Positions 5,402-64,000 of a stretch of 64,000 bases of DNA are shown here, in pieces. Under the pieces are notes generated by a model that was not told the DNA's origin, did no database searches, and saw only the letters and a program-made list of their open reading frames with translations. Every line of letters starts with the position of its first letter. The first letter of the stretch is position 1. The DNA comes from Actinophytocola oryzae (GTDB lineage Bacteria > Actinomycetota > Actinomycetes > Mycobacteriales > Pseudonocardiaceae), in NCBI RefSeq assembly GCF_004364325.1, contig NZ_SOCP01000003.1, positions 682,001 through 746,000 of the forward strand, in the 5' to 3' direction. Both the position numbers and the translations under genes were made by a program.

Positions 5402-6985
5402 ATGAGCGAGGAACGGATCATCGCGGGCAGGTACCGGTTGCGAGAGCGGCTGGGCAGCGGTGGCATGGGCACCGTGTGGCGTGCGTTCGACGAACGGTTG
5501 CGCCGCACGGTCGCCGTGAAACAGGTTGACGTGCCTGGTGGTCTGACCGGTGAACAGAACGAGGAGCTGGTCCGCCGCACGATGCGGGAGGGCCGCATCG
5601 CCGCCCGGCTGCAACATCCCCAGCTCATCACCGTGTTCGACGTGGTCGAGGACGGCGGCCGGCCGTACCTGATCATGGAGCACTTCCCGTCGAAGAGCCT
5701 GGACACCCTTGGCACGCTGTCGGTCACCGAGGCGGCCAGGATCGGCGCCGAGGCCGCCGACGCGCTGGCCGCCGCACACGAGTCCGGCGTGGTGCACCGG
5801 GACGTCAAGCCGGCCAACATCCTCGTCGGCGAGGACGGCGCGGTGAAGATCACCGACTTCGGCGTCTCCCGCGTCGTCGAGGACCTGACCGCGACGATGA
5901 CCGGCATGTTCGCCGGCACCCCCGCCTACCTGGCGCCCGAGGTCGCGAAGGGCGGGCAGGCGTCGTTCGCGTCGGACGTGTACTCGTTGGGCGCCACCAT
6001 CTACGCGGTGGTCGAGGGCAGCCCGCCCTCCGGCGAGAGCGCCAACCCGATGGGGCTGCTCTACCGCGTGGCCAACGGCGAGATCAACAAGCCGGTCCAC
6101 GCCGGGCCGCTCACGGTCACCCTGATGTGGCTGCTCAGCACCGATCCCGACGACCGCCCCACCATGGCGGAGGCGGGCAGGACCCTGGCCACCGCGGCGA
6201 CGGCGTCCGAGAAGAAGCCTGCCCCGGCAGCGGCGGCACCTGTGGTGGCGGAGGCACCCGAGGCTCCCGCCGAGCCCCCGAAGGCCGCCGAGGAGCCGAG
6301 CCCCGAACCCCTCGCCGAGCCCGTCGCCGAGCGCGAGCCGCTCATGACGCCTCCCCCGCCCGCCGCGCCGGCGCAGCCCGCCACCGGGACGTCGCCGACC
6401 ACACGCAGGCGCATCGCGATCGGTGCGGGGCTCGCGGCGGTGGCCGTGATCGCCGCGCTGGTCACCATGTTCCTGCGCCCCGACGACCAGGCGAAGGCAG
6501 GCGACCAGCCCGCGCGGCACACCGCCTCGGAGTCCTCCGCGGCTCCGGCGGGCACGCCGTCGTCGGACGCCGACACCCCGACGACGACCACCACGACGAC
6601 CACCACGAACCCGCCAGGGCAACAACAGGAGCAGCCCCAGCCGCCCGCGGGTGGCGGCCCGCAGGCAGCCACGCCCACGGCCGCGGTCACCGACTACTAC
6701 GCACTCATGCCGGGCGACCTGGACACCGCCTGGACACGTCTCTCGGCGAAGTTCCAGGTCTCGCCTGCCCGCAGCAGGAGCTACTACCAGCAGTTCTGGG
6801 GCGAGATAGCCTCGGTCCAGGTGTCCGAGGTGTCGCAGGTCGGCGCCAACGCCGTCGAGGTCACGGTCCTGTACGACTACAAGGACGGCCACCGGATCAG
6901 GGAGCGGCACCACTACACGCTCGTCAACCAGAACGGGACGTGGTTGCTCGACACCGTGAAGGTCCTCAGCAGCTCACCGGCCTAG
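5402..6985 (+). CDS. PknB-type membrane serine/threonine protein kinase
   Basis: 527 residues. Kinase domain ~9-265: glycine loop GSGGMG (18-23), ATP-anchoring Lys40 in VAVK, catalytic HRDVKPAN with Asp134 and Asn139, DFG Asp152 and APE at 178-180. An Ala/Pro/Glu-rich juxtamembrane stretch follows (~265-335), then one membrane segment (~338-358), a Thr-rich linker and a ~100-residue external domain (430-527) with [17 protein letters not shown], an NTF2/SnoaL-like look. The topology is that of actinobacterial PknB kinases, with a cytoplasmic kinase and an extracellular sensor, but there are no PASTA repeats, so the signal is unknown. It appears monocistronic; no cognate phosphatase is adjacent. 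Confidence 0.93.
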
Positions 6986-26965: not shown

Positions 26966-28903
26966 ATGTCTGATGCGCCAACCCCACCCTGGGGAGTCAG
27001 GGTGGAGCACGACGTACGGAACGAATACGCGGACGGCATAGAGCGCCTCCAGACAAGACTTCTGCACATCGGCCTGTTCCTGCTCACCGTGGTCATGATC
27101 GGTGGCGGGGCCGGTGTGCTGATGGTGGTCACCCGGGACTCGAACGCCGTCGGCGTCTCGATCGCCGTGGTGGCGGGCTGTGCTGTCGCGGTGCTCGTGG
27201 CGTTCCTGGCGGCCATGTCGGCCACCCGGCGGCTCACGCCGCTGGCCAGGGCCGCACAGCGGCCACTCGCCCCGCCGAGACCGGCACCCGTGCCGCGGCC
27301 GGAGTACGTGGCACCGCAACCCGAGGTGCTCCAACAGGAGCCGCCCCGGCAGGAGCCACCGCGCCCGGAACCGCCGAGGCCGGAAGGGTCGCGGATCGAG
27401 GCGTCACCGTTGTGGGCGCGGCCGGGCGAGTCGCAGGTCACCCTCACCGACGACCCCGGGCAGCGGCGCGAGGTGTTCGTCAAGCTGGCGCGACGCCTGC
27501 AGTCGCTCATCAACCGTGCCATCAAACGGATCGACGAGCTGGAGCAGGAGAACGAGGACCCCGAGCTCCTCGACGGTCTCTACGAGATCGACCACCTCTT
27601 CACCCTCGCGCGGCGACAGGGCGAGAACCTCGCGGTCCTTGGCGGCGAGTCGCCACAGCGCCGGTCGAACAAGCCGGTCAGCGTGTACGCCGTGCTGCTC
27701 GCCGCGGTGTCCGAGGCAGAGCACTACCGCCAGATCGCGATCGTGCCGGTCGAGGAGGTGGAGATCCACGGCCACGCGGTCGCGGAGATCATCCACCTGC
27801 TGGCCGAGCTGCTGGAGAACGCGACCCGCTTCACCTCACCGGACGGCCCCAAGGTCGAGGTGCGTGCGCACAAGGTCACCGCGGGCCTCGCGATCGAGGT
27901 GCAGGACCGGGGGCTCGGCATGAGCCACGAGGACCTGGAGCGCATCAACCAGCTGCTCGACGGCTCGACCCGCATCGACCTGTCCGAGCTGCTCGAGGAC
28001 GGCCGCATCGGCCTCGCCGTCGTGCGGGAGCTGGCGCGGCGGCACAACATCCGGGTTCGCCTGCAGTCCAACATCTTCGGGGGCATCGCGGCGGCCGTCG
28101 TCATCCCGCCGCCGCTGCTCAGCACGCCGGAGCGGGAGCCACGCCACCGCACGACCGGCGAGTACCAGCGCCAGACGACGCTCCCGAAGCGCGGCGTGGA
28201 CGAGACCTCCAGGCGCGGCACGGAATCGGCCGCACGGGCACGGGGCACGGACACGTCTGGACGGCTCACCCCCGCCGTCGCCGAGAACGGGCACCAGGCC
28301 GAACGGACCCGTGTGACAACGGAACCGGCCATCGCGGCCCCGTCGGCCACGAGGCAAGCGGTTGCCCCGACCCGCGCGGCCACCGACTCGGCCGCGGAAT
28401 CCGGCAGGGCATCCGTATCGGGATCCGGAGCCGAGCGGTCGTCGGTCTCCGCCAACCCGCAGGCACCCGGCGACTACTCCGGTCCCATCCAGGTGCCCGC
28501 GCCACTGCCGATTCCCACGGCCTCCGTGCAGGCACCGCCGTCGGTGCCCGGCCTCGGCCCGATCCGCCCGGCACAGCCCGCCCGTCGCGCCGAGAGCGAG
28601 GACGAGCTCCCGGCTCTGCCGGTTCGCGCGCCCGGCCGCTCCTACGACGAACTGCGCGGCGGCAAGGGGGGTGCGATCAGCGAGGCGATGTCCCCGGAGC
28701 CGGAAACCGAGGGGCCGCCGCCACTTCCGCAGCGGCGAGGCAGCCACCTGCGTGAGGAGCTGCTCGAGCCGCCCGCACCGACCCGGCCGGTACCCGGCCA
28801 CAACACCAGCCTCATGAAGACCTTCCAGGCGGGCCGGGAAACCTGGTTCGCCGACCGGGACAACGCGAAGAAGAGCAGAGGAGACTCATGGCCGACGACC
28901 TGA
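26966..28903 (+). CDS. cvnA: Conservon sensor histidine kinase-like ATPase (CvnA type)
   Basis: 645 residues. Two membrane helices (~33-55 and ~62-84), a Pro-rich linker (~96-150), a coiled-coil (LARRLQSLINRAIKRIDELEQENED), then a HATPase_c domain: N-box ENATRFTSPDG near 283, G1 DRGLGMS near 313 and G2 region ~349. The remaining ~250 residues are Pro/Ala/Thr-rich and low-complexity. This is the CvnA architecture of Streptomyces conservons, which lack a cognate response regulator and signal through CvnB-D at the membrane. The stop overlaps the roadblock gene by 16 bases. Confidence 0.92.
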   Translation: MSDAPTPPWGVRVEHDVRNEYADGIERLQTRLLHIGLFLLTVVMIGGGAGVLMVVTRDSNAVGVSIAVVAGCAVAVLVAFLAAMSATRRLTPLARAAQRPLAPPRPAPVPRPEYVAPQPEVLQQEPPRQEPPRPEPPRPEGSRIEASPLWARPGESQVTLTDDPGQRREVFVKLARRLQSLINRAIKRIDELEQENEDPELLDGLYEIDHLFTLARRQGENLAVLGGESPQRRSNKPVSVYAVLLAAVSEAEHYRQIAIVPVEEVEIHGHAVAEIIHLLAELLENATRFTSPDGPKVEVRAHKVTAGLAIEVQDRGLGMSHEDLERINQLLDGSTRIDLSELLEDGRIGLAVVRELARRHNIRVRLQSNIFGGIAAAVVIPPPLLSTPEREPRHRTTGEYQRQTTLPKRGVDETSRRGTESAARARGTDTSGRLTPAVAENGHQAERTRVTTEPAIAAPSATRQAVAPTRAATDSAAESGRASVSGSGAERSSVSANPQAPGDYSGPIQVPAPLPIPTASVQAPPSVPGLGPIRPAQPARRAESEDELPALPVRAPGRSYDELRGGKGGAISEAMSPEPETEGPPPLPQRRGSHLREELLEPPAPTRPVPGHNTSLMKTFQAGRETWFADRDNAKKSRGDSWPTT

Positions 28904-29298
28904 ACTGGCTGCTGCGCAGGCTGGTTGAGGCCGTACCCGACACGCACAGCGCGTTGCTGTTGTCGGTCGACGGCATTCCGAAGTACTGGTACGGCCTCGA
29001 TATCGACAACGCCGACCGGCTCGCGGCACTCGCCTCGAGCATGTGCTCGCTCGCCAACCAAGTCGGCAAGAAGTTCTCCGCCGACGGCTCCGACGGCGTG
29101 CGGCAGGTGATCACCGAGCTCAACGAGATCATCCTGTTCGTCACGGCCGCCAGTGCGGGCAGTGTGCTCGCCGTCCTCGCCGCCCGCGAGGTCGACGCCG
29201 GGATCCTGAGCTACGAGATGCAGCGGTTGTGCACGCAGGTGCCCGCCGTCCTGGTGACACCGACCCGATATGCACACCAGGGCAATGGAACTCGGTGA
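28888..29298 (+). CDS. cvnB: Roadblock/LC7 protein (CvnB type)
   Basis: 136 residues, one roadblock/LC7 domain: LNWLLRRLVEAVPDTHSALLLSVDGIP at the start and VRQVITELNEIILFVTAASAGSVLAVLAAREVDAG later. In conservons and Mgl systems roadblock proteins act as GAP or scaffold for the Ras-like GTPase encoded two genes on. GAGGAG lies before the ATG. The stop overlaps the next start (GTGA). Confidence 0.92.
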   Translation: MADDLNWLLRRLVEAVPDTHSALLLSVDGIPKYWYGLDIDNADRLAALASSMCSLANQVGKKFSADGSDGVRQVITELNEIILFVTAASAGSVLAVLAAREVDAGILSYEMQRLCTQVPAVLVTPTRYAHQGNGTR

Positions 29299-29672
29299 CG
29301 ATGACTGGTCCGGGCGAGAACACTGGCGAGGACCACGACATGTTCGGCGTACGGCCGTACGCCATGACCAGCGGACGGACACAGCCCAGCACACCGCTCG
29401 ACCTGCTGTCGCTGGTACGCGCGTCCGGGAAGGGCATGATCACGTCGAACCAGCTGGGGTTCGAACACGCGAAGGCGTTGGCGCTGTGCCAGACACCCAC
29501 GTCGGTCGCGGAGATGGCCGGTCGGCTTCGCAGACCGGTCACCGTCACCAAGGTCGTGCTCTCCGACCTGATCGAGCTCGGCGTCGTGATCGCGAAGCTC
29601 ACCCCGACCGAGTACTCGAACGATCCCGCCGTGCTGGAGGCGGTGATTGATGGTCTCCGAAAGTATGTCTGA
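29295..29672 (+). CDS. cvnC: DUF742 protein (CvnC type)
   Basis: 125 residues if the GTG at 29295 is used, which overlaps the cvnB stop by four bases; ATG 29301 is an equally possible start. The DUF742 pattern is seen as FGVRPYAMTSGRTQPSTPLDLLSLV, then CQTPTSVAEMAGRLRRPVTVTKVVLSDLIELGVV, a winged-helix-like fold, and a short conserved C-terminus LEAVIDGLRKYV. CvnC joins the membrane complex of the conservon. Confidence 0.92.
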   Translation: MTMTGPGENTGEDHDMFGVRPYAMTSGRTQPSTPLDLLSLVRASGKGMITSNQLGFEHAKALALCQTPTSVAEMAGRLRRPVTVTKVVLSDLIELGVVIAKLTPTEYSNDPAVLEAVIDGLRKYV

Positions 29673-30252
29673 GCTCTTCCCCATCCAGGTCAAGATCCTC
29701 GTCGCGGGTGGCTTCGGGGTCGGCAAGACGACGTTCGTCGCCTCGGTCAGCGAGATCGAGCCGCTGACCACCGAGGAGACGCTCACCACCGCGAGCGTGG
29801 ACACCGACAGCGTGGCCGGTGTCGAGGCGAAGTCGACCACCACGGTGGCGATGGACTTCGGCAGGCTTTCCTTCCGCGAGAAGAACCTCGTGCTCTACCT
29901 GTTCGGCACGCCCGGCCAGGACCGGTTCTGGTTCATGTGGGACGAGCTGTCGCGCGGTGCCATCGGCGCGGTGGTGCTCGCGGACACGCGACGCCTCGCC
30001 GACTGCTTCGGCGCCGTCGAGTTCTTCGAGCGCCGCGGCATCCGGTTCCTGGTGGCGCTCAACGAGTTCGACGACGGCTACCACTACGACGACGCCGCGG
30101 TGCGGCAGGCGCTCGCGCTGAAGCCGCACGTGCCGCTCGTGCGTTGCGACGCCCGCAAGTCCCAGTCCTCGAGCCGGGTGCTGATCACCCTGCTCGAGTC
30201 CGTGCTGGCCTCATCGCGAGCAGCCAGCCAGATGATTCGGAGTGCACTGTGA
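29650..30252 (+). CDS. cvnD: Ras/MglA-like GTPase (CvnD type)
   Basis: 200 residues from ATG 29650, with GGAGG about ten bases upstream and the start inside cvnC. G1 loop GGFGVGKTTF (~20-29), Thr-rich switch I region, G3 FGTPGQDRFW (DxxG replaced by T-P-G-Q), and G4 written ALNEFDD in place of NKxD. These changes are usual in the CvnD/ATP-GTP-binding family. It is the molecular switch of the conservon. The last codons overlap the GAF gene by four bases. Confidence 0.93.
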   Translation: MVSESMSELFPIQVKILVAGGFGVGKTTFVASVSEIEPLTTEETLTTASVDTDSVAGVEAKSTTTVAMDFGRLSFREKNLVLYLFGTPGQDRFWFMWDELSRGAIGAVVLADTRRLADCFGAVEFFERRGIRFLVALNEFDDGYHYDDAAVRQALALKPHVPLVRCDARKSQSSSRVLITLLESVLASSRAASQMIRSAL

Positions 30253-30833
30253 ACGGTGACATCCTCGACCAGCGGCTGTTGGCCGCCCCGCACGACCCGG
30301 ACATCCCAGCACGGTTGGCACGCCTTGCCGAGCTCGCGCAGCTCGGGGTGGGCGACCGGCCGGACCCGGCGTTCGACGAGTTCGCCGCACGGCTCGCCGC
30401 GGCGGCCAACGCGCCGTACGCGATGGTCAACTTCATCGGCGACGAGGAGCAGTTCTTCGCCGGCCTGTACGGCCCGAACAGCGCCAAGGCCGACGCACTG
30501 GAGGCGGCGTCGTCGGCGTCGCACGCCGCGCCGGGCAGGACGATGTCGCGTGAGCACGGCTACTGCCCGCACGTCGTGGTGCGGCGCAAGGCACTGGTGC
30601 TCGACGACGTGTGCGCCTACCCGCGCTTCGCGGTCAACCCCGTGGTGAACTCGATCGGCGTGCGGGCCTACATGGGCGCGCCGCTGATCGACCGCACGGG
30701 CACCGCGATCGGCACGATCTGCGTGGTGAACACCGAGGAGAGCAACTGGGGGCGCTCCGGCCTCGGGATGATCAAGTCGATGGCCGAGGAGGTCATGGAC
30801 CTCATCCACCGCCGCGAGCAGGGCCTCGGCTGA
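30249..30833 (+). CDS. GAF-domain protein appended to the conservon
   Basis: 194 residues from GTG 30249, coupled to cvnD by a GTGA overlap. Nearly all of it is one GAF domain: FDEFAARLAAAANAPYAMVNFIGDEEQFF, CPHVVVRRKALVLDDVCAYPRF and AYMGAPLIDRTGTAIGTICVVN are typical. A single Cys in the EHGYCPH block aligns with the Cys of phytochrome-like GAF modules, though bilin binding is not suggested strongly. Many Streptomyces conservons carry a cytochrome P450 in this position; here a GAF sensor takes its place, which hints at small-molecule input or output. Confidence 0.88.
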   Translation: MNGDILDQRLLAAPHDPDIPARLARLAELAQLGVGDRPDPAFDEFAARLAAAANAPYAMVNFIGDEEQFFAGLYGPNSAKADALEAASSASHAAPGRTMSREHGYCPHVVVRRKALVLDDVCAYPRFAVNPVVNSIGVRAYMGAPLIDRTGTAIGTICVVNTEESNWGRSGLGMIKSMAEEVMDLIHRREQGLG

Positions 30834-32404: not shown

Positions 32405-35400
32405 TCAGGCGCGGGCGCGCCTGCGGCCTCCGGCGGCTCGGGGACGCTCGACCGCCGGGATCTGGTCGTAGGAGTCCTCGGGGCCACCTCGCGCCGAGGG
32501 GACGCCGTAGTCCTCGGGCCTGCCGTGCTTGGGCATGCGGACCGGGGGCATCTCGAGCGAGTCGTCCACGCTGGACATCGCGGGCACGAGCCGGACACTG
32601 CTCAGGGCGGGGTCCGCGTCGCGGCGCCGCCGTGCCGGCGGGCGGCCGAACTCGGGCGTGAGGTCCTCGGCGCGGTGCGCCGCACGGCGGTCGTCGGAGA
32701 CGGGCTTCACCACGGTGTCGAACGAGTCGTCCGCGGCACGCCGCGACCGGCCGTTCGTGGCGGCGCCGTTCGTGCGGCTCACCGCGGGCAGGTTCGAGAA
32801 CGAGTCCGACGCACCGAGACCGGGCTCGGAGATCATCGTCGCGAACGAGTCCTCCGAGACGAGGCTCGGCTCGGAGATCATCGTGTCGAACGAGTCCTCG
32901 GACGGCCTCGACGGCGGCAACGCGGGGAACGGGTCCTTGGGACCGCGTGCGCCGTTGGTGCGACGAGCGGGCGGCATGCCGCCAGACGACGCCTCGGGAC
33001 GCACGGCGGGCAACCGGCTGAAGGAGTCCTGCGGCGCGCCGTTGGTGCGACGCGCTGGCGGCATGGCAGGCGACGACGCCTCGGCACGACGAGCAGGGGG
33101 CATGCCCGCGGACGACGCCTCGGCGCGACGGGCAGGCGGCATCCCGGCCGACGAGGCCTCGGCGCGGCGAGCCGGGGGCATCCCGGCCGACGACGCCTCC
33201 GCACGACGGGCAGGCGGCATCCCGCCGGAGGACAGCTCGGGACCGCGTGCGGGCGGCAGCGCACGGAACGACGCCTCTGCCGCGCCACGAGCGGGTGGCA
33301 TGCCCGCGGACGACGCCTCAGCGCGGCGCGCGGGCGGCATACCCGAGGAGGAAGCCTCGGCACGACGCGCCGGGGGCATCCCGGCCGACGACGCCTCCGC
33401 ACGACGGGCGGGCGGCATGCCCGGGGAGGAAGCCTCCGGCCCACGAACCGCTGGCAGCGCGCGGAACGAGTCCTGCGGTCCGCGTGCGGCGGGCATGCGG
33501 CCGAACGAGTCCTCGGGACCACGCGCGACCGGCGTGCCGTTCGCGCCCCGCCGGATCGGCGGCATGCTGCTGAAGGAGTCGGCAGGGCCGCGGGTCACCG
33601 GCGGCATCGCGCCGAAGGAGTCGGCGGGACCGCGTGGCGGCACGTCGGAGAAGTCCGGCGTCCGCACGTGCCCGTTGGCGTCGAGCAACGCCATCTGGCC
33701 GGTAATGTCGATGGCCATCCCGGAGTCCTTGCCGACACGCCCGGCGAGCGGCTCGGGGATGCCACGCACGTCGGTCATCTCGGCGGCTGTGAACTCCGGC
33801 ATCCGGGGTAGGGGGTCGTGGGCGGGCGGCGTGTGGCCGGTGGCCGGGCCGAGCGCGGGACGGCCGTTCGGGGGCGGGGCGCCGAACGAGGTCGCGGGTG
33901 CGCCGTTGTGGGCCCTGCCGTTAGGGGTGTGGCCGTTGACGGCGGGGAAGGTGCCGCTGCCGGACACGCCCTCGCCGAACGCGTTGATCGGGGTACGCGG
34001 CACGGCAGGCGGGATGGGGAACGGGCCGCTGGTCGACGGGCGGCTCAGCGGGCCGGACACGTGGACCGGGGTGCCACCGGCGACGGGAAGCGTGCGCCCG
34101 CCGATGGGCACGGGGCCGCGCCCGTTCGGCGGCGGGGTCGCGTTCGGGGGGCGGACCGCGACGGGGAGCATGCGGCTGAACGAGTCGACGACGGTCTTCG
34201 GTCGGCCGCCGCCGGGCACGTACCCGGCACCGACGCCGATCGGACCGCTGATCTCGACGGGCACCGGGGGCGGGGGCTGCTCGACGAAGCCGATCTCGTG
34301 CTCCTGGCGCTCCTCGCGCTGGAACTGCTTGCCCTGCGGCGGTGCGGAGTGCTTGCCCGGCAGCTTCTTCTTCGAGAAGGACCCGCTCGTGGCGCCGGAA
34401 CTGGCGGTGACGAGCGGACGGGCCGGTGCCTCGGCGTCCACGCTGCGGCGCGGCTCGGGGTTCTGCCTGCTGACGCTCTCGGCCCACGCGATCATCGCCG
34501 AGGGGCAGTCGACGCCGACCACGCCCATGAGCCGGCCCTCCTGCGAGAAGCCGTAGACGGTGCCGGTGCCCTCGTCGGGGGTGCCGAGCTTGACGATGTC
34601 CTTGCCCAGCTTGAGCATGCCCGCGGCCTGGATGCGGAAGCTGTACTGGTCGGTCCAGAAGCGCGGCATCGGCGTGAACGGCTGCGCGGCGGCTCGGCCT
34701 GCCAGCAGGTTCTCGGCGGCGGCGCGGCCCATCTCGACCGCGTTGAGCCAGTGCTCGACGCGGCGGGGGACGTTGTCGAAACGCAGGTTCGGCCACTGGG
34801 CTACGTCACCGGCGGCCACGACGTCCTCGGCGCCGACCACGTGACAGGTCGGCTCGCACACGACGCCGTTGTCCAGGGGCAGCCCGGAGCCGCGTAACCA
34901 GTGGGTCATCGGCTTGGTGCCCGCGGCGAGGATCACGCAGGACACGAGCAGGCTGCTGCCGTCGGTGAGCTTGAGGGTGATGCCCTCGGCGCCCGGCGAC
35001 CACTGCTCGACCGAGTTGCCGAGCGCCAGGTCGACGCCGTGCTCGCGGTGGGTGTTGGTCAGCCACTCGCCGAGGTCGGGGCCGAGCACGTTGCCGAGGA
35101 GGTTCTTGCCCCGGCCGATGAGGGTCACCTCGCGGGACAGGTGCCGCAGGCTCGCCGCCAGCTCGCAGCCGGTGAACCCACCACCGATCACCGCGACGCG
35201 GCCCTTGGTCGAGCCGATGACCCGCTCGAGGTCCTTGCCGTCGGACATCGTCCGCAGCACGAGCACGCGCGGGTCGTGGTAGGGCACCCCGCTCTGGCGG
35301 GTCGCCTCGACACCGGTGGCGATGATCAGACCGTCGTAGGTCATCTCCTCGCCACCGGGCAGTACCAGGGTCTTCTTGTTCGGGATCAGCTGGCGGACCT

Positions 35401-35635
35401 GGGTGCCGAACCGCCAGCGTGCGTTGAGGTCCTCGTAGGCGGGAAGCGTCAGATCGCTGGATCTCAGCTCACCTTTGAGAAGCTGCTTCGACAGTGCTGG
35501 TCGATGGTAGGGCGGCAGCTTCTCGTCGCCGAGGATGGTGATGTCCCCCTCGAACTTGAGCTCGCGGAGCCGTTCCGCCGCCCGCAGGCCCGTGAGCCCG
35601 CCGCCGACGACAACGATCCGTTCGTCCCGGTTCAT
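32405..35635 (-). CDS. Ferredoxin-reductase-like FAD oxidoreductase with a ~680-residue repetitive tail
   Basis: 1076 residues. Residues 1-395 are a pyridine-nucleotide-disulfide-type reductase: FAD site VVVGGGLTGLRAAERL, LIIATGVEA, NAD(P)H site VAVIGGGFTGCELAASL (149-165), and AGDVAQWPN (FAD, ~275). No redox-active CxxxxC is present, as in ferredoxin/rubredoxin reductases. Residues ~396-660 are Pro/Gly-rich, and 668-1060 carry about 23 copies of a short unit of form (E/A)-(D/A)-S-(F/S)-x-x-(M/L)-P spaced by Arg-rich linkers (PPARRAEASSAGMPP and relatives). The tail has no signal, Cys or membrane helix and should be disordered and basic. The start overlaps the cytochrome/ferredoxin gene stop by four bases, so electrons probably flow NAD(P)H to FAD to that ferredoxin. 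Fusion length is far above the ~400 usual for the family. Confidence 0.88.
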   Translation of the reverse strand: MNRDERIVVVGGGLTGLRAAERLRELKFEGDITILGDEKLPPYHRPALSKQLLKGELRSSDLTLPAYEDLNARWRFGTQVRQLIPNKKTLVLPGGEEMTYDGLIIATGVEATRQSGVPYHDPRVLVLRTMSDGKDLERVIGSTKGRVAVIGGGFTGCELAASLRHLSREVTLIGRGKNLLGNVLGPDLGEWLTNTHREHGVDLALGNSVEQWSPGAEGITLKLTDGSSLLVSCVILAAGTKPMTHWLRGSGLPLDNGVVCEPTCHVVGAEDVVAAGDVAQWPNLRFDNVPRRVEHWLNAVEMGRAAAENLLAGRAAAQPFTPMPRFWTDQYSFRIQAAGMLKLGKDIVKLGTPDEGTGTVYGFSQEGRLMGVVGVDCPSAMIAWAESVSRQNPEPRRSVDAEAPARPLVTASSGATSGSFSKKKLPGKHSAPPQGKQFQREERQEHEIGFVEQPPPPVPVEISGPIGVGAGYVPGGGRPKTVVDSFSRMLPVAVRPPNATPPPNGRGPVPIGGRTLPVAGGTPVHVSGPLSRPSTSGPFPIPPAVPRTPINAFGEGVSGSGTFPAVNGHTPNGRAHNGAPATSFGAPPPNGRPALGPATGHTPPAHDPLPRMPEFTAAEMTDVRGIPEPLAGRVGKDSGMAIDITGQMALLDANGHVRTPDFSDVPPRGPADSFGAMPPVTRGPADSFSSMPPIRRGANGTPVARGPEDSFGRMPAARGPQDSFRALPAVRGPEASSPGMPPARRAEASSAGMPPARRAEASSSGMPPARRAEASSAGMPPARGAAEASFRALPPARGPELSSGGMPPARRAEASSAGMPPARRAEASSAGMPPARRAEASSAGMPPARRAEASSPAMPPARRTNGAPQDSFSRLPAVRPEASSGGMPPARRTNGARGPKDPFPALPPSRPSEDSFDTMISEPSLVSEDSFATMISEPGLGASDSFSNLPAVSRTNGAATNGRSRRAADDSFDTVVKPVSDDRRAAHRAEDLTPEFGRPPARRRRDADPALSSVRLVPAMSSVDDSLEMPPVRMPKHGRPEDYGVPSARGGPEDSYDQIPAVERPRAAGGRRRARA
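32756..33634 (-). repeat. In-gene tandem repeat array (codons ~668-960)
   Basis: The DNA encodes repeated 12-15 residue units; the tightest block (codons ~733-865) is a 39-base unit for AEASSAGMPPARR with small variations. Reading frame is kept throughout, so copy-number change by recombination would alter tail length without frameshift. Confidence 0.85.
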
Positions 35636-36477
35636 CGGGCACGTACCTCCTGCAACTGGATTGCCTGCATCGGGCAGGACCGGGCTGCCGCCTGCGCCTG
35701 TGCGCGGCTCGCCGTGTCGGGGTCACGGACGTAGCGCAGCCGTCCGTCTTCCATGAGTTGGAACAGTTGTGGCGACTCTGCCTGGCAGATCCCGTACCGC
35801 TTGCACCGCTGGTTGTCCACGCTGACCTGCACCTTCCGGCCCATCCGCGGACCGGGTGGCGGCGGTGTGGCTACCGCCAGCTGGGTCTCGGCCGCGGCAG
35901 GCGCACCAGCGAGCAGGCCGGCGCGAGTCAGGATCCTCGGCGGTAGGAACCGAAGGATAGTCAGTGTGACCGCCGGTGTCAGCACCGTGATTCCGCCGAG
36001 CCACAACAGACCGAGGTGTCCGTTGTGGATGGCGCCGAACCACGAGTGCACGACCGTCATGCCGACCGCGGGGTAGGCGAACTGGTGGAACCGCAGCCAG
36101 CGCCGGTAGCGGATGAAACGCCGCAGGCCGGTCGAGATGAGGATCGCGGTCATCAGCTCGAGGCCGAGGATGCCCATGGTGTGACGAAGCTGACCGCCGA
36201 AGGGCACCGTGATGCCGAAGAGGTCGAGCCCCTGCTCGCGGAGCAGGAGGAACACGATCGCGTGGGTGAAGCCGGTCGCGATGGTGAACGTCGCCAGGAT
36301 CATGTGGCCCGAGCGGATGGCCTGGTGGCCGGTCAGCCTGCGGATCCAGCCGGTGTAGGTGAACACGCCCCAGCAGAGCGTCAGGCACATGAAGACGTAC
36401 GACAGGCGCGCTGAGAGGGCCGCGACCTCACGAATGCCGATGTCGTGCTGTGGCAGTGCGACGACAACGTCGATCAT
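35632..36477 (-). CDS. Membrane cytochrome-b/ferric-reductase-like protein fused to a 3Fe-4S-type ferredoxin
   Basis: 281 residues. Five membrane helices lie at ~22-42, 59-79, 100-120, 129-151 and 156-178, with His 58, 72, 99, 131, 144 and 151 as possible haem ligands; the arrangement resembles ferric-reductase-like/YedZ-type domains. A linker (190-212) leads to a ferredoxin module: Cys225-x5-Cys231 and Cys268-Pro in RCKRYGICQAESPQLFQL and ARSCPMQAI, the three-Cys pattern of P450-associated 3Fe-4S ferredoxins. The fusion ties a soluble ferredoxin to a membrane electron carrier. Its stop and start overlap both neighbours by ATGA, so it forms one unit with DUF4142 (upstream) and the flavoprotein (downstream). 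Confidence 0.88.
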   Translation of the reverse strand: MIDVVVALPQHDIGIREVAALSARLSYVFMCLTLCWGVFTYTGWIRRLTGHQAIRSGHMILATFTIATGFTHAIVFLLLREQGLDLFGITVPFGGQLRHTMGILGLELMTAILISTGLRRFIRYRRWLRFHQFAYPAVGMTVVHSWFGAIHNGHLGLLWLGGITVLTPAVTLTILRFLPPRILTRAGLLAGAPAAAETQLAVATPPPPGPRMGRKVQVSVDNQRCKRYGICQAESPQLFQLMEDGRLRYVRDPDTASRAQAQAAARSCPMQAIQLQEVRAR

Positions 36478-37199
36478 TCCGCCGTCCCGTGTGCGCTGAA
36501 GGTGCGGACGATGGCGATCGTGGCCGCCATCATCAGGGCCGCCACCACGGCGGCGAGCATCAGGTCTCCACCTGACAAGTGGTTCTCCGGGGTGTTGTAG
36601 GTCCGTGCGCCGGCCTCGGCGAACATGCCGTGCTGTGCGTCCACGTCACCCGTGGCCTCCAGCAGGGTCATGTGCCGCATGACGATCGTGTTGGCCTGCG
36701 TCGCGAAGTCGCGGATGACCGTGTTGCGGGTCCCGGCGCGTACCTCGGCGATCAGCCCGAAGACCGTGCCGTGTGCGGCACGCAGGCGGTCGGCGAAGAC
36801 CTTGTCGAAGTCGTCGTCGGAGGCGGCCCGGATCTCGTCCATCCACTTCGCCGTCGACGAGGAGGGCTTGTCCGGCAGCTGCGCGCCGAACTGGCCGGCC
36901 AGCTGCTTGATGGCCACGTCGAGCTTCGTGTGGTCGGCGTTGATCGTCTTGCCGGCCGCGCGGACCTTGTCGGTCTGTCCGCGTTCGACGGCGAGCTTGC
37001 CCATCGGGATTTCCCAGAGGTTGGCGAACCGAATCACCCTGAGGAACTCGCGGTCGAGGCTGGACAGTGGTTGTTGTGCGCTCTGTTGGACCACCTGGGG
37101 CTGCGCCTGGCTGGCCACGGCGAAGCCCACTGCTGGGCACGCCGCACCGAGGATCACCAGGAACGAGGCCGCGATCCATCGAACAAATCTGCGTCGCAT
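36474..37199 (-). CDS. Exported DUF4142 protein with C-terminal membrane anchor
   Basis: 241 residues. An N-terminal signal (residues 1-30, RRRFVRWIAASFLVILGAAC) is followed by a ferritin-like helical DUF4142 domain (LSSLDREFLRVIRFANLWEIPMGKLAVERG; TINADHTKLDVAIKQLAGQFG) and a final membrane segment (~210-232). DUF4142 proteins are outer-surface four-helix bundles of unknown role, often with conserved His/Glu suggestive of metal binding. First gene of the three-gene DUF4142/cytochrome-ferredoxin/flavoprotein operon. Its promoter should lie in the 435-base region that carries the CRP-type and GAACC palindromes. Confidence 0.88.
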   Translation of the reverse strand: MRRRFVRWIAASFLVILGAACPAVGFAVASQAQPQVVQQSAQQPLSSLDREFLRVIRFANLWEIPMGKLAVERGQTDKVRAAGKTINADHTKLDVAIKQLAGQFGAQLPDKPSSSTAKWMDEIRAASDDDFDKVFADRLRAAHGTVFGLIAEVRAGTRNTVIRDFATQANTIVMRHMTLLEATGDVDAQHGMFAEAGARTYNTPENHLSGGDLMLAAVVAALMMAATIAIVRTFSAHGTAE

Positions 37200-37925: not shown

Positions 37926-38639
37926 CTAGATCGGAACGCTTACTACCTCTTCGGCGTTCGCACCCATGGTCTCGATGGTGATGGCCTTGACGTCGTCGGG
38001 CGAGACGAGCGCCATGCCGGCCAGGCGGCTGCGCTTCGCACCCTCCGCCGAGACCTGCCAGGTGCCTGCCAGCACCTTGTCACCCTCTTTGGAGATGACG
38101 TACAGCGCACACGGCTTTCCCTCCGGCAGGCCGGTTGCCGTGGCGTCCACCCACACCCAGCCCTTCTTCGGCTCCAGCGCGACGTTCATGGTCGCGCCGG
38201 TCTCCGAGTCGGTGGCGTCGGCGATGCGGGCGTTGGACGGGGTCGTCGCGACGGTGAACGTCGGTCCGGCCACGTTGTCCGTCGGCGCCGTCTGCCTGCC
38301 GAGCACGATGCCACCGCCGAGTGCCACGACCACCGCCGCGGCAGCCGCGACGTACACGCCGGTCATGCGCCTGCGTGGTGGTGCCGCGGCCTCGGTCTCG
38401 GTGGCGACCCTGCGCAGCGTGCGCCGCAACAGCAGGTCGCCGTGCTCGGGTGGTCCGTCGAGGAACGCCTCCGGCGGCACCTGGTCGAGTGCCCGCCGGA
38501 TCATCATGAGCTCCTGCACCTCACGCTGACACTCACGGCAGCCGTTGAGGTGGTCGTGCACCATCCGCGCCTCGGCCGGATCAAGTGCGCCGATCGCGTA
38601 CGCGCCGAGCTGTGCCCGGTCGTGCGCTGGTCCGCTCAT
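37926..38639 (-). CDS. Zinc-finger anti-sigma factor with RskA/RslA-like exported domain
   Basis: 237 residues. The anti-sigma zinc motif H-x3-C-x2-C is at His30, Cys34 and Cys37 (VHDHLNGCRECQREV), then a membrane helix (~93-114, VYVAAAAAVVVALGGGIVLG) and an extracytoplasmic domain of RskA/RslA type (GWVWVDATATGLPEGKPCALYVISKEGDKVLAGTW split over two strands). It should hold the ECF sigma factor encoded just upstream inactive until a redox or envelope signal causes release or proteolysis. Its start overlaps the sigma stop (ATGA at 38636-38639). Confidence 0.92.
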   Translation of the reverse strand: MSGPAHDRAQLGAYAIGALDPAEARMVHDHLNGCRECQREVQELMMIRRALDQVPPEAFLDGPPEHGDLLLRRTLRRVATETEAAAPPRRRMTGVYVAAAAAVVVALGGGIVLGRQTAPTDNVAGPTFTVATTPSNARIADATDSETGATMNVALEPKKGWVWVDATATGLPEGKPCALYVISKEGDKVLAGTWQVSAEGAKRSRLAGMALVSPDDVKAITIETMGANAEEVVSVPI

Positions 38640-39205
38640 CGCCGCACCTCCCCCGACTGACCCAAGGACTGCGCCAGCTGTGCCCGCAGCGCGCGGACCG
38701 CGTGGTATGTCCTCGATTTCACGGTGCCGGGGGCGATGCCCAGCACAGCGGCTGTCTCGTTGACAGTCCTGCCACGGTAGTAGAGCTCGACGAGCACCGC
38801 CCGGTGCTCGGCTGACAGGCCGTCGAGAGCGCCCATCACGGTCATCGTGTCGACCACCGTGTCCGCGTGGTCACGCTGTGCGGCTGGGACGTCGACCGGC
38901 TGGTTGACCTCCATCGGCCGCACCGCACGGGCCCTGGCCCGGTCGGTGACGAGGTTGCGGGCCACCGTCAGCAGCCACCCGCGAACCGAGCCGACACCTG
39001 AGCGCAGCGCGTCCGCGTGTTTCCACGCCCGCAGCAAGGTCTCCTGCACGACGTCCTCTGCCGCCGCACGGTCGCCGGTCAACCTGGTCGCGTAGTCCAG
39101 GAGGCTCCGGCCGTGCTCGGCGTAGAGGGACTTGATCAGGTCTTCGGCCGGGTTCCCAGCGGCTACGCGCCGAGAACGTCGTCCGATCATTGCCACGGCC
39201 GCCAT
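38636..39205 (-). CDS. ECF sigma factor (SigL/SigK-like)
   Basis: 189 residues from ATG 39205, with GGGCAGGT close upstream; ATG 39190 is an alternative. Region 2 is seen as LIKSLYAEHGRSLLDYATRLTGDRAAAEDVVQETLLRAWKH and the -10 recognition helix SVRGWLLTVARNLVTDRAR; region 4 is LSAEHRAVLVELYYRGRTVNETAAVLGIAPGTVKSR. It belongs with SigK/SigL-like ECF factors that pair with RskA/RslA-type anti-sigmas, as here. It is the likely regulator of the redox island. A GAACC palindrome (39275-39294) precedes it. Confidence 0.92.
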   Translation of the reverse strand: MAAVAMIGRRSRRVAAGNPAEDLIKSLYAEHGRSLLDYATRLTGDRAAAEDVVQETLLRAWKHADALRSGVGSVRGWLLTVARNLVTDRARARAVRPMEVNQPVDVPAAQRDHADTVVDTMTVMGALDGLSAEHRAVLVELYYRGRTVNETAAVLGIAPGTVKSRTYHAVRALRAQLAQSLGQSGEVRR

Positions 39206-39274
39206 CACCTGCCCGATTGGCCGGTCGATGAGCAGGGTACTTGAAGCAACTTCGCTCACGACAGGAACACGAGT

Positions 39275-39294
39275 GTGAACCGGGTTCGGTTCAC
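39275..39294. promoter_or_regulatory. Palindrome GTGAACC-gggttc-GGTTCAC upstream of sigma factor
   Basis: Seven-base perfect arms; the left part GAACCGGGTTC also reads as a GAAC-N3-GTTC palindrome like the one at 37620. It overlaps the stop codon of the double-Rieske gene and lies about 70 bases before the sigma start. Confidence 0.5.
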
Positions 39295-40106
39295 GCCAAC
39301 GAGATCTGATTCCCGGACACCTTAACGGCACGCGCCGACAGTGGTGCAGTGGCGGGTCCCTGCGAGACCGACCCGTCCAGCTTGAACTTGCTGCCGTGGC
39401 ACGGACAGTTGATGGTGCCCCCGGAAACCTGGTCGACAATACAGCCCTGGTGGGTGCAGACGGCCGAGAACGCCATGAACTTGCCCGCGCTGGGCTGTGT
39501 CACGACGATCTCCTGGTCGGCCAGGATCTTGCCGCCCCCGACGGGTACCTCCGCCGTGGACGTGAGGGCCTTCCCGCCGCCGCCCGGTGGCGCGGTGGTG
39601 TCCGGGGCCGTCGTCTCCGGCGCGGTCGTCTCCGGCGCCGTGGTCTCCGGCGCGGTCGTCTCCGCGGGAGGTGCCGCACCGCCGGTGACCAGCTCGCCGT
39701 ACTCGTTGACGCTCACCGCGGCAGCGGGCAGCGGCTGTGTGGCGGGGCCGGTGTCGACCGCGCCGTCCAGCTTGAACTTGCTGCCGTGGCACGGACAGTT
39801 GATGGTGCCGTCGACGATCTCGTTCACCACGCAGCCCTGGTGCGTGCACACCGCCGAGAAGCCCTTGAACTGCCCGGCTTCCGGCTGTGTGACGACGAGC
39901 TTCTGCGCCTCGAAGATCTTGCCGCCGCCGACCGGGACGTCCGCGGCCTTGCCGAGGACCTCCCCGTCCTGCTGCGTCGTGGTCTTCTCACTGCCCGCCG
40001 CCCCCTCGTCGGGGAACTGTGGACCGCCGTAGCGGGCACAGGCGGCACATGCGGCGCCCACGGCTACGAACCCCACCGCGGCGCGGCGGGGGATCTGCTG
40101 TGTCAT
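39291..40106 (-). CDS. Exported protein with two tandem Rieske [2Fe-2S] domains
   Basis: 271 residues. A Tat-like signal (PRRAAVGFVAVGAACAACA, 6-24) precedes two nearly identical Rieske modules. The first has C-T-H at 87-89, Cys92, Cys104 and Cys106-His107 (CTHQGC and CPCHGS); the second repeats this at 217-219, 222, 234 and 236-237. Both therefore keep all four cluster ligands and the disulfide pair of high-potential Rieske proteins. A five-fold ETTAP-type linker (149-173) joins them. It should carry two clusters on the outer face of the membrane, next to the DUF6529 membrane protein encoded just upstream (one-base spacing). Two-cluster Rieske proteins of this kind are unusual. Confidence 0.92.
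   Translation of the reverse strand: MTQQIPRRAAVGFVAVGAACAACARYGGPQFPDEGAAGSEKTTTQQDGEVLGKAADVPVGGGKIFEAQKLVVTQPEAGQFKGFSAVCTHQGCVVNEIVDGTINCPCHGSKFKLDGAVDTGPATQPLPAAAVSVNEYGELVTGGAAPPAETTAPETTAPETTAPETTAPDTTAPPGGGGKALTSTAEVPVGGGKILADQEIVVTQPSAGKFMAFSAVCTHQGCIVDQVSGGTINCPCHGSKFKLDGSVSQGPATAPLSARAVKVSGNQISLA
39588..39662 (-). repeat. 15-bp repeats encoding the ETTAP linker
   Basis: Five consecutive 15-base units encode E/D-T-T-A-P between the two Rieske domains. Multiples of three keep frame, so the linker can change length. Confidence 0.8.
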
Positions 40107-60036: not shown

Positions 60037-63000
60037 TCAGTTCCTGATGATCGTGAACGTGGTCGTCGTGTTCCTGATGTCGACCGCGTTGTTGCTCAGC
60101 ACCAGGTTGTTGAAGGTGACCGAACCCCTTGCCGGGCCTTCGCCCGGTTCGGGCAGCTCGTTCGCCCAGATGCCGAAGCCGGACTTGGCGTCGTAGGCGT
60201 CACCGCTCTTGCGTGCCCCGGAGATCGACACGTTGGTGAAGATCGTGTCGGCCACCGGGAAGAGCGGCTGACCACCAACGTAGTCGGTCTGGAACATGAT
60301 CCCGGAGTACGTCGGATCCACGATGTCCACATCGGACACCCGAATGCCCTGGAATATCTTGGTCGCCGAGTAGATCCAGATACCGGGGAACGTCTGGGCG
60401 CCCCAGAAATGGCCACCAGCGCGAACCACGGACACGTTCTGGAACTGCGTCGGCGGCGAGGCGCCGAAACCGTTCATCGGGATGCCGAAGTCCAGCGAGC
60501 TGATCGTGATGCCGGAGTACACCAGCGTGTCCGCGACATAGAGGTTGCGGAACACGTTGTTGTAGCCGCCGTACACCGCGAAGCCCGCGGCCCGCCACGT
60601 CAGCAGCGACGTGAGGTTCTCGAACGTGTTGCCCGTGACCTCGCCGCCACCGCCGTCCTGGGCGTTGAACAACGCGAAGCTGTCGTCACCCGTGGCCCTG
60701 GACTCGTTGTTGGACACCAGGTTCCCGGAGCTGCCGTTGGTCATGTTGATGCCGTCGGCGAACGTGTCGCGGATCCGGTTGTTCCGCAACGTCATGTTGT
60801 CGGTGTTCGCGCCCCAGTAGAGGCACACCATGTGCTCGACCCAGATGTTCTCGATCGTGGTGTTCGCGGTGCCGTTGAAGTCGAACACCTTGCCGGGGCC
60901 GTCGTTGCGTTCGACGTAGTTGCCGAACACGGCGAACCCGGAGAACACCGAACCGTTGGCCGAGGACTCCGCCCGGAACCCGATGTCGGAGTTCTGCTGG
61001 CCGGACGGGGCGAAGAACTTCGTGTACCACGGACCGGCGCCGATGACGCGGACCGGCTTGCCGTACACCTGGAACTTCCCGGACGTCTGGTAGTCACCGG
61101 GCGGCAGGTACACCCCGACGAGGTTGCCGGTGGTGTCCATCCGCACCCGGTCCAGCGCGTTCTGCACGTCCTGCTGCCCGAACCCGGTCGGTACCGCGTA
61201 CCGCGCGGGGTCGGGGTTCGCGATGGCCGACACCTGTTCGAGGTTCACGAAGTCGATCGCGAACGTCCCCGAGTTGGCTGCGTCCTTCTGCAGCCGGATC
61301 CTGCTGCCCTGCGGGATCGTCGAGTCCAGCATGACGTTGGCCTCGTCGTAGATGTGCCGTGCGGGACCGGCGCCTGGCGAGTTGCTCGGCCCGGCCTCCG
61401 CGCCGTAGAGCCACGCGTACTTCGAGGTCAGGTTGATCGCCTTGTGGAACTGGCCGTTGACGTAGATGTTCAGCGTCGAGTTGGTGCCGCCGCCACCCGA
61501 GGAGTCCGGGATCGAGAACCGGGTGACGAGGGTGTTGGTCGGCGCCCTGGTCGTCCACTCGACGTAGGAGCCGTTCGAGTTCAGCGTGACCGCACGCCGC
61601 CCGGACGCCTCACCCGCGAGGTCGCCGATCGTCCTGTTGGGACCGATCACGGACGCGCCGCCGCCGGTGGCGCCGTCCTCCGCCTCGTAGTAGTCGTACG
61701 GCATGTTGGCGCCGCGACCGACGAAGAGGTTCTGCGTCGAGGTGTTGTTGGGCTGCTTGGCGGGCAGTTCGTTGGCGTCGTTGGCGAGCACGGTCTTGAT
61801 CGTGTAGCGGCCGTTGGCGGCCGTCCAGGAGCCGAGTGCGACCGGGCTCGTCGTGGCACCCGGTGCGATCACCCCGCTCGCGGAGCCGGTCAGCGTCCTG
61901 ACCACCGCGCCGGTCGTGGCGTTGGTGACCGTCAGCGTGATGCCGTGGGCGCCGCTCGCCGAGGCGACCGTGCCCTGGTTGCGGATGGCCACCGAGAAGT
62001 TCACCGTCGCGCCGTTCTGCGGCGTGTTCGGCGACCAGCTGACCGACGCGACCAGGTCCGAGGTCGGCACCGCGCTCACCACGAGCGCGTTCGGGCTGGT
62101 GAAGGTGTTGTTGGTCTCCACCTTCTCGACGATCGTGTTGTCCTCGTCGACGACGGCCTTCGGGGTGTAGCTGCCCGCGTCCCGTGCGCCGATGTTCGCC
62201 GTCACCGTGGCGGTCGCGCCTGCGGCGAGTGCGCCGACCGACGCCGTGCCGACGGCCGAGTCGCCGAGGTAGAACTTGACGTTCGTCGCGCCGGACTGGC
62301 GGTCACCCGCGTTGCGGACGGTGGCCGACAGGGTCACCGCGCTGCTCTCCGACGGCGACACCGGCGTCCAGCTCAGCGCCGAGACCTGCAGGTCCGGGTT
62401 CGCGGCGGGCACGCCGATCACCTGGAGCTCCGCGACCTGACCGGCCGGTGCGCCCGTGTTCGCGGTGAACTGCAGGCGCACCTCCGCCGCCGTCGCGGAA
62501 ACCGGGATGGTGACGAGGTTCCCCGACGATGGGCTGAAGTTGTACTGCTGCGAGCCCACGATCGAGTTGAACGTGGTGCTGTCCTGGTCGCGGCCGAGCA
62601 CCTGGAAGGTCTGCGTGCGCGGACCCCAGGCCGAGTCCGGGTTCAGCTTGACCACGATCGACGTGATCGCCGCGTTCGCGCCGAGGCTCACCGTGAGGCT
62701 GGCCGGGTTGGCGTTGCCCTCCCAGTACGTCGCCACGTTGTCGTCGTTGGCGTTGGTGGGGATGAAGGTGAACACCGACCCGGAGGCCGTGATCGGCTTG
62801 CCCACCGCGAGGTTCACGCCCGCGCTGGTGCCGGTGCGGGTCACCGTGTTGCTGTTCGGCGACTGGTTGCCTGCCGCGTCCCGTGCACGCACGTAGTACG
62901 CCACGGTCGCGCTCGCGGGCTGGTTGTCCGTGTAGGACCGCACGTTCGCGGCCACGCTCGCCCGCAGCACGCCGTTGGCGTAGATGTCGTAGCCGGTCAC

Positions 63001-64000
63001 GCCGACGTTGTCGGTCGAGGCCTGCCACGACAGCGCGATCTGACCGGATGCCGGCTGGGTGTAGGCGAGGCTGCCCGGCGCGGTCGGCGCCTGGGTGTCC
63101 CCTGTGGACGGTCCGTAGACCTCGAGCTCCGAGAGCTGCCCCGCGGGCCAGCCGGTGTTCGCCGTGATGAAAAGCCGCACGTACCGGGTGGTCACGGAGT
63201 TGAAGCTGATCGTCACCGTGTTGCCGGACGCCGGGTCGAACCGGTAGGCGGCCGACGCGACGAGGTCGGCGAAGGAGCTGCCGTTCGTGCTCTGCTGGAC
63301 CGTGATCGTCTGCGTGCGCGCCTCCCAGCCGGTGGGGAGCTTCAGCACGAGCCGGTTGGTCGCGAGCGACGCGCCGAGGTCGGCCTGGACCCACTGCGGG
63401 AACGCGTTGTTCGCGCTCTCCCAGTAGGTGCCCTGGTTGCCGTCGATGACGTTGGACGCGTTGTACGGCGCGTTGGCGGAGCTGGCCGACGCGGACTGGG
63501 CCGCGGCGACGAGGTTCCTGGTGGAGACCGGTGCGGCGTACGCCTCGAGCGAGGACAGCTGGGCCTTGCCGGTGAACGCGACCCTGACGAACCGCGCACG
63601 CACCTCGCCGAGCGGGATCGTGACCGAGTTGTCCTTCTCGGGGGTGAAGGACCTCGGCATGGCGGCGGCCGCGGTCTCGTAGGCCCCGCCGTCGACGCTG
63701 GTCTGGATGCTCAGCTGCTGGGTGCGGGCCTCCCAGGAGTCGGGGAGCCGGAGCACCGTCCGGTCGAGCCGGGTGACCTCACCGAGGTCGACCTGTGCCC
63801 ACTGGGCGCCTGACGGGGCGCTCTCCCAGTAGGTGTCCTGGTCGCCGTCGACGACGGCGGTGGCCTTGGTCTGGTTGGAGGACGTGACGACCGGTCTGCC
63901 ATACGCGAGATCGGCCTTGTCCGCCAGAGCGGCGGGCCCGGTCGCGACGACAAGCCCGGTGACGAGTGCCGTGGCCGTGACCCACGACAGTAAGCGCTTC
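60037..64000 (-). CDS. Secreted multidomain GH87 alpha-1,3-glucanase (mycodextranase type), 5' end off the window
   Basis: About 1321 codons are visible from 63999; the first visible residues are KRLLSWVTATALVTG, i.e. mid signal peptide ending PAALA, so only a few codons are missing. Order: two discoidin/F5-8-type-C domains (ATAVVDGDQDTYWES and NVIDGNQGTYWES), a fibronectin-III module, a third discoidin-like domain, two CARDB-like Ig domains, a CBM35-like domain (YEAEDGATGGG), then a parallel beta-helix. In the helix Asp (codon 60754-60756, ADGIN) and Asp-Asp (60682-60687, GDDS) are spaced 23 and 24 residues, as I recall for the catalytic Asp trio of GH87 glucanases. It should degrade fungal wall or dental-type alpha-1,3-glucan outside the cell. 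A rare TTA Leu codon lies at 63991-63993, implying bldA-like control. Confidence 0.9.
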   Translation of the reverse strand, partial: KRLLSWVTATALVTGLVVATGPAALADKADLAYGRPVVTSSNQTKATAVVDGDQDTYWESAPSGAQWAQVDLGEVTRLDRTVLRLPDSWEARTQQLSIQTSVDGGAYETAAAAMPRSFTPEKDNSVTIPLGEVRARFVRVAFTGKAQLSSLEAYAAPVSTRNLVAAAQSASASSANAPYNASNVIDGNQGTYWESANNAFPQWVQADLGASLATNRLVLKLPTGWEARTQTITVQQSTNGSSFADLVASAAYRFDPASGNTVTISFNSVTTRYVRLFITANTGWPAGQLSELEVYGPSTGDTQAPTAPGSLAYTQPASGQIALSWQASTDNVGVTGYDIYANGVLRASVAANVRSYTDNQPASATVAYYVRARDAAGNQSPNSNTVTRTGTSAGVNLAVGKPITASGSVFTFIPTNANDDNVATYWEGNANPASLTVSLGANAAITSIVVKLNPDSAWGPRTQTFQVLGRDQDSTTFNSIVGSQQYNFSPSSGNLVTIPVSATAAEVRLQFTANTGAPAGQVAELQVIGVPAANPDLQVSALSWTPVSPSESSAVTLSATVRNAGDRQSGATNVKFYLGDSAVGTASVGALAAGATATVTANIGARDAGSYTPKAVVDEDNTIVEKVETNNTFTSPNALVVSAVPTSDLVASVSWSPNTPQNGATVNFSVAIRNQGTVASASGAHGITLTVTNATTGAVVRTLTGSASGVIAPGATTSPVALGSWTAANGRYTIKTVLANDANELPAKQPNNTSTQNLFVGRGANMPYDYYEAEDGATGGGASVIGPNRTIGDLAGEASGRRAVTLNSNGSYVEWTTRAPTNTLVTRFSIPDSSGGGGTNSTLNIYVNGQFHKAINLTSKYAWLYGAEAGPSNSPGAGPARHIYDEANVMLDSTIPQGSRIRLQKDAANSGTFAIDFVNLEQVSAIANPDPARYAVPTGFGQQDVQNALDRVRMDTTGNLVGVYLPPGDYQTSGKFQVYGKPVRVIGAGPWYTKFFAPSGQQNSDIGFRAESSANGSVFSGFAVFGNYVERNDGPGKVFDFNGTANTTIENIWVEHMVCLYWGANTDNMTLRNNRIRDTFADGINMTNGSSGNLVSNNESRATGDDSFALFNAQDGGGGEVTGNTFENLTSLLTWRAAGFAVYGGYNNVFRNLYVADTLVYSGITISSLDFGIPMNGFGASPPTQFQNVSVVRAGGHFWGAQTFPGIWIYSATKIFQGIRVSDVDIVDPTYSGIMFQTDYVGGQPLFPVADTIFTNVSISGARKSGDAYDAKSGFGIWANELPEPGEGPARGSVTFNNLVLSNNAVDIRNTTTTFTIIRN

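Follow-up and report, generated by a model that had tools for sequence, protein, structure and literature searches.

The flavoprotein gene described here comes from Actinophytocola oryzae and lies in a window of 64,000 nucleotides, by which we mean the whole stretch of DNA that was analysed. Its product joins a ferredoxin-reductase-type head to a 672-residue tail, predicted to be disordered, in which one short motif recurs about twenty times. The units of the main repeat array are under purifying selection at the protein level, and in each of six Actinophytocola species exactly one motif-bearing tail is present, either on this gene (gene A) or on a paralogue (gene B), but never on both.

The reductase head and its neighbouring genes

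The flavoprotein gene and its neighbours show the following features:

32405-35635, minus strand: flavoprotein gene, 1076 aa, ATG start
34424..35635, minus strand: FAD/NAD(P)H ferredoxin-reductase head, residues 1-404 (Pfam Pyr_redox_2 and Reductase_C)
32405..34423, minus strand: disordered C-terminal tail, residues 405-1076 plus stop (AF2, composition, periodicity, no Pfam domain)
35632..36477, minus strand: partner gene, a 281-aa membrane protein with a ferric-reductase-like bis-heme domain and a C-terminal single-cluster ferredoxin
36474..37199, minus strand: DUF4142 protein with an N-terminal signal-like and a C-terminal membrane segment (Pfam), usually conserved upstream of the module
37926..38639, minus strand: anti-sigma factor, zf-HC2/RskA-like (Pfam)
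38636..39439, minus strand: ECF sigma factor (Pfam, NCBIfam), N-terminal limit uncertain, overlapping a Rieske ORF

Pfam places Pyr_redox_2 at residues 6-303 (175.4 bits against a gathering score of 26.1) and Reductase_C at residues 326-404 (31.7 against 25), and matched no family beyond residue 404. The closest PDB match of the head is TodA (3ef6, E 4e-50), with putidaredoxin reductase (1q1r) also among the best, and the AF2 pLDDT is mostly 80-95 over residues 1-398. As judged from its sequence, the head is a TodA/putidaredoxin-reductase-type ferredoxin reductase of normal domain make-up. It shares its fold, FAD/NAD domains and Reductase_C with the TodA/putidaredoxin reductase/BphA4 class. 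The chains of that class, however, have 408-436 residues and serve dioxygenases or P450s, whereas the flavoprotein has a membrane heme-ferredoxin protein as its partner and bears the long tail. At 1076 aa it exceeds the usual TodA-type length of about 400 residues, a value that is typical rather than mechanistically defining. The initial annotation, which had the family normally ending near 400 residues, was partly right in this respect, but the sampled Pseudonocardiaceae relatives span 408 to 1387 aa.

The partner gene overlaps the start of the flavoprotein gene, and a membrane-ferredoxin gene lies directly upstream of the flavoprotein in every locus with a detected head; this constant neighbour supports a role of the flavoprotein in electron transfer from NAD(P)H to ferredoxin. 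Pfam finds Fer4_13/Fer4_15 in the partner, but Ferric_reduct scores 19.9 bits against a gathering score of 28, and we therefore call the protein only NOX-like. Two histidine pairs, H58-x13-H72 and H131-x12-H144, are invariant in 12 sequences, and C225, C231 and C268 are conserved. The x13 and x12 spacings equal those of the heme-ligand histidines of NOX2, at positions 101/115 and 209/222 (PMC3591440). The partner thus retains both heme-ligand pairs of the NOX/ferric reductase superfamily (PMC3591440); NOX and FRE proteins, however, fuse an FAD/NADPH domain to the membrane domain, whereas the partner fuses a single-cluster ferredoxin, the FAD function being left to a protein of its own, of the TodA type. 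The AF2 model of the partner is of low confidence (pLDDT 58), and a comparison of the membrane partners revealed no obvious feature that tracks the presence of a tail.

An ECF sigma gene is found near the module in most relatives. The split NOX-like module with its separate TodA-type reductase and DUF4142 protein (35632-37199, minus strand) is kept across the sampled Pseudonocardiaceae. Beside the ECF sigma gene, a secreted or lipoprotein-like protein (39291-40106, minus strand) has two tandem Rieske domains connected through a TAPETTAPETT linker, and a tandem-Rieske gene is near the module in A. algeriensis too. Convergent with the flavoprotein operon is a conservon-like cluster (26966-30833, plus strand; histidine-kinase-like ATPase, DUF742, small GTPase and GAF protein), the gene order of which is retained in A. 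algeriensis. Farther along the window, a large protein of the alpha-1,3-glucanase type that also has F5/8 type C and CARDB domains (60037-63756, minus strand) faces an opposite strand that is open for 1268 codons.

Composition, repeats and selection in the tail

The tail is rich in P, A, G, R and S, has a net charge of +19 and is predicted to be disordered, with an AF2 pLDDT of about 35 throughout. It is truly coding: its GC3 is 0.89, and within the main array the differences between units at codon positions 1, 2 and 3 are 0.16, 0.10 and 0.54. An antisense ORF (32529-34556, plus strand) was considered as a real gene and ruled out, since the codon-position pattern fits the minus strand. Plasmid records contained nothing resembling the tail DNA. 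From the head towards the C-terminus, these parts can be distinguished:

34160..34207, minus strand: conserved non-repeat anchor GRPKTVVDSFSRMLPV, residues 477-492, the first full motif copy
33662..33763, minus strand: conserved block GIPEPLAGR...AIDITGQMALLDANGHVR, residues 625-658
33557..33634, minus strand: GPADSFxxMPP units, residues 668-693, upstream of the main array
33047..33445, minus strand: main 10-unit array (R/G)x(P/A)EASSxGMPPAR, period 13-14 aa, residues 731-863 (TRF)
32822..32902, minus strand: two SEDSF(D/A)TMISEP units, a 45-bp repeat, residues 912-938 (TRF)
32408..32617, minus strand: conserved C-terminal block ADPALSSVRLVPA...GPEDSYDQIPAVERP...GRRRARA, residues 1007-1076

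The fullest form of the unit is G-P-E-D-S-[FY]-x-x-[ML]-P-[PA]-[VA], and the main contiguous array is built of the simplified unit RAEASSAGMPPAR. How many copies are counted depends on the pattern: S-x-x-x-[MLI]-x-[PA]-[VA] occurs 19 times in the tail, S...[ML]P 18 times (shuffled mean 0.75) and the literal pattern of the initial annotation 13 times (shuffled mean 0.00). With degenerate copies included the total is about 23-24, so that lenient counting bears out the earlier figure of about 23, against 19 on the stricter pattern. Motif counts far exceed those of shuffles in all three gene-A tails known, although residue shuffling makes a repeatedly duplicated unit look more significant than it is. 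Tandem Repeats Finder, which uses no protein input, independently reports a 39-bp array (33048-33423) and a 45-bp array (32794-32897). The serine is near-invariant, being present in at least 90% of the A units; an acidic residue at -1/-2 accompanies most A units, but the acidic -1 is absent from most units of the main array.

Pairwise comparison of the ten contiguous units gives a pS of 0.606, which is near saturation, and a pN of 0.123 (pN/pS 0.20). Recent duplication or gene conversion would leave silent sites alike; the units are therefore old and held by constraint at the protein level. Unit sets picked by the motif pattern show the same direction of constraint, but such sets are partly circular and it is the contiguous array on which we rely. 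Between the window species and A. algeriensis, the anchors that lie outside the repeats, at either end of the tail, have a dN/dS of 0.22-0.43, and the repeat region 0.51. In the A. algeriensis orthologue the anchor GRPKTVVDSFSRMLPV is near-identical (dN/dS 0.22), the block of residues 625-658 is kept (0.31) and the C-terminal block aligns (0.43). The middle block also contains the sole, possible, AF2 hairpin of the tail (strands 640-642 and 648-651; block pLDDT 52).

Distribution of the tail among paralogues and genera

Genome searches for relatives employed the flavoprotein head only as query, and it was matched at E 1e-100 or better in 113 of 297 Pseudonocardiaceae genomes. In the sampled relatives the C-terminal extension is 5 to 983 residues long. 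The comparison within Actinophytocola covered six genomes: the window species, A. algeriensis, A. xinjiangensis, A. gossypii, A. xanthii and one MAG. Gene A is tailed in three of them, with 1076 aa in the window species, 971 aa in A. algeriensis and 914 aa in the MAG; the two shorter orthologues retain the motif with a different copy number and spacing, a comparison that the initial annotation had suggested as a check. In the other three species gene A has no tail (445, 447 and 456 aa). In the window species and in A. algeriensis, gene B, about 50% identical to gene A, has 422-435 aa. In the three species with a short gene A, it reaches 1387, 1289 and at least 1144 aa (the last ending at a contig end), with tails of 740-983 residues that carry GPEDSWPSMPA, MDSWLSMPAV, ASSPGMPPA and SSGLRPVG units. 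The view that paralogues have no tail, taken from the tail-less paralogue of genome G000, was thus wrong for these three sister species. The earlier note had regarded homologues without any motif conservation as the mark of neutral expansion. In this comparison the motif persists in the orthologues that are tailed, and in the three species where a close orthologue lacks any tail, the paralogue is tailed.

HMMER domain counting on the tails gave no matches, probably as repeats are filtered out by its bias correction, and a simple position-specific matrix was used instead, with the tail's own composition as background and 15 positions in the full A model. Built from A units only, it matches the B tails of the three sister species in 7, 4 and 12 windows, compared with a shuffled mean of about 0.05. 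In the head tree, the tailed A genes, the tailed B genes and those of genus g36 form separate supported clades, implying repeated gain or transfer of the tail. Perhaps recombination between the two paralogues within Actinophytocola carried the tail from one gene to the other, so that the motif shared by A and B reflects common descent and not convergence. The matches of the A-only model, which include the GPEDSW-type units, and the fact that the A and B motif tails never co-occur both favour such a transfer. We nevertheless regard it as somewhat doubtful, since no resemblance between the A and B tails is visible outside the motif, and since the six species make up only two clades, so that one or two events may be all that lies behind the complementary pattern.

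In the B gene of the MAG (G005, L132) the tail is shorter and carries other units, of the form RSGYxxP. An unrelated DUF6779 protein of the same MAG (L214) likewise has SGYxxP-type repeats, hinting that tail units are perhaps shared within a genome.

Outside Actinophytocola, the tails of genus g36 contain PSMRGMPPVEP and EHPSFPSMQPV arrays, and the 8-residue core of the A model matches four g36 tails (0 of 1000 shuffles). The same core matches a short array with the anchor residues in genus g26. The full 15-position model finds no match in the g36, g26 or DUF6779 tails; since g36 and g26 are matched by the core only, and DUF6779 by anchor residues only, this is weaker evidence. Moreover, as residue shuffles exaggerate duplicated units, about two independent unit types stand behind the g36 case and one behind that of g26. 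Genera g25, g30 and g31 also have tails, repetitive or rich in Pro, but their units are unrelated. Extension is therefore common, whereas not every genus has the motif. Tail-less orthologues are found among the other Actinophytocola A genes and in Amycolatopsis, Kutzneria and Longimycelium; as many orthologues work without a tail, the core enzyme does not depend on it.

When 24 whole genomes were searched, the arrays were confined to the flavoprotein gene with one exception, and a six-frame scan of all collected loci gave no further arrays. Weak unit matches at G000:C3:391561 and G005:C182 were attributed to chance or to antisense frames. The exception is a DUF6779 membrane protein (PF20570; Rv3604c-like) of the window's own genome (L210:6792-8636, C22), with 13 PSM(R/Q)N(L/F)PPVERQ units. 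Its array resembles the g36 flavoprotein tail, but the protein is unrelated to the flavoprotein, has a membrane segment and a coiled coil, and its orthologues have differing, genus-specific repeats followed by a conserved RSVSELLAxHG...RRRRRRED end. As this array surfaced from a genome-wide search, it is weak evidence alone and the similarity could be chance.

Possible roles of the tail

We consider it reasonably probable that the flavoprotein is the soluble, cytosolic NAD(P)H-ferredoxin reductase of a conserved actinobacterial module for transmembrane electron export and that its tail is a disordered multivalent docking scaffold. From the gene pairing, the heme and cluster ligands and the DUF4142/ECF context we infer that electrons would pass from NAD(P)H to the FAD head, on to the ferredoxin domain of the membrane protein and its two b hemes, and then to the outside of the membrane, where the DUF4142 protein is possibly a downstream component. 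The unit S-[FYWS]-x-x-[ML]-x-[PA]-[VA] would act as a short linear motif and would probably form one helical turn, N-capped and terminated by Pro. Each unit may bind a common putative partner weakly, the avidity coming from the roughly 20 copies, and the tail could thereby bring the enzyme into clusters or hold it in place, comparable to the way in which partners assemble on the disordered tail of RNase E. Of the multivalent docking platform that had been proposed, a selected, repeated motif in a disordered region is borne out, and docking is a candidate function.

The same observations bear on three other explanations. Slippage in GC-rich DNA at a tolerant C-terminus might have produced a neutral or weakly selected repeat expansion with no specific function. 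This could account for the high variability of tail presence and length in the family (5 to 983 residues), for the unrelated repeats of g25, g30 and g31 and for the genus-specific repeats of several DUF6779 orthologues, yet saturated silent sites together with a kept protein sequence (pN/pS 0.20) argue against it, as do the anchors conserved between species at both ends of the tail, the same motif on two paralogues in complementary species and the near-limitation of arrays to one gene per genome. We think it improbable; and the earlier judgement that the tail is not simple low complexity is upheld by the varying copy number of a kept motif, the purifying selection, the motif on the paralogue's tail and the predicted disorder. 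Equally improbable is a purely electrostatic tether, in which the Arg-rich, positive tail keeps the reductase on the anionic membrane, close to its ferredoxin partner, and the motif arises incidentally. All long motif-type tails do have a net charge of +13 to +25, and the partner is a membrane protein in every case; the conserved spacing of Ser, Met/Leu and Pro-Val is left unexplained, however, and the charge is -2 to +11 for the tails of g30 and about 0 for those of g31. Electrostatic tethering could still supplement docking.

A phosphorylation platform deserves more weight, even if we find it unlikely: a Ser/Thr kinase would act on the serine of each unit, so that the tail would serve the redox module either as a multi-site switch with a graded response or as an array for phospho-dependent docking. 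The near-invariant serine and its usual acidic neighbours fit this idea, and a Pkinase-domain gene is present in the window (5402-6985, plus strand), although at 25 kb it is not linked to the module. The tail of Rv3604c from Mycobacterium tuberculosis is phosphorylated, including at DDS*GGLHAR (PMC4322841), its phosphopeptide DPLTGGQSVADLMAR matches the C-terminus of DUF6779 relatives, and the DUF6779 protein of the window's genome bears a similar array. Against this, the logo of mycobacterial PknA is centred on Thr with a hydrophobic residue at +3 (PMC7164672), whereas the unit is hydrophobic at +4, so there is no clear match, and most main-array units have no acidic -1. We found no phosphoproteome of Actinophytocola in the literature.

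Returning to the docking scaffold, one of the nearest known parallels is the C-terminal non-catalytic region of RNase E in gamma-proteobacteria, an enzyme that likewise combines a head with a long disordered tail containing short conserved microdomains (PMC4435900). There is no homology between the two, and the RNase E microdomains bind RhlB, enolase and PNPase, whereas the flavoprotein repeats a single motif about 20 times. The protein is best filed as a union of known elements, a ferredoxin reductase and an RNase E-like disordered scaffold tail.

To our knowledge, few bacterial enzymes have a long tail in which a linear motif is repeated and under selection. Since in sister species either of two paralogous redox enzymes can carry this motif, it seems to be the tail and not its carrier that is kept. 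The cluster itself appears to be a split, NADPH-oxidase-like system of membrane electron transfer, in which a ferredoxin and a TodA-type reductase replace the fused dehydrogenase domain. More speculatively, S-aromatic-x-x-Met-x-Pro-Val might be a dedicated Pseudonocardiaceae code on flavoprotein tails, handed between paralogues or re-evolved because a conserved putative receptor reads it; the bacteria would then possess a multivalent scaffold for organising transmembrane electron export. Such a receptor, if it exists, would be a new peptide-recognition module.
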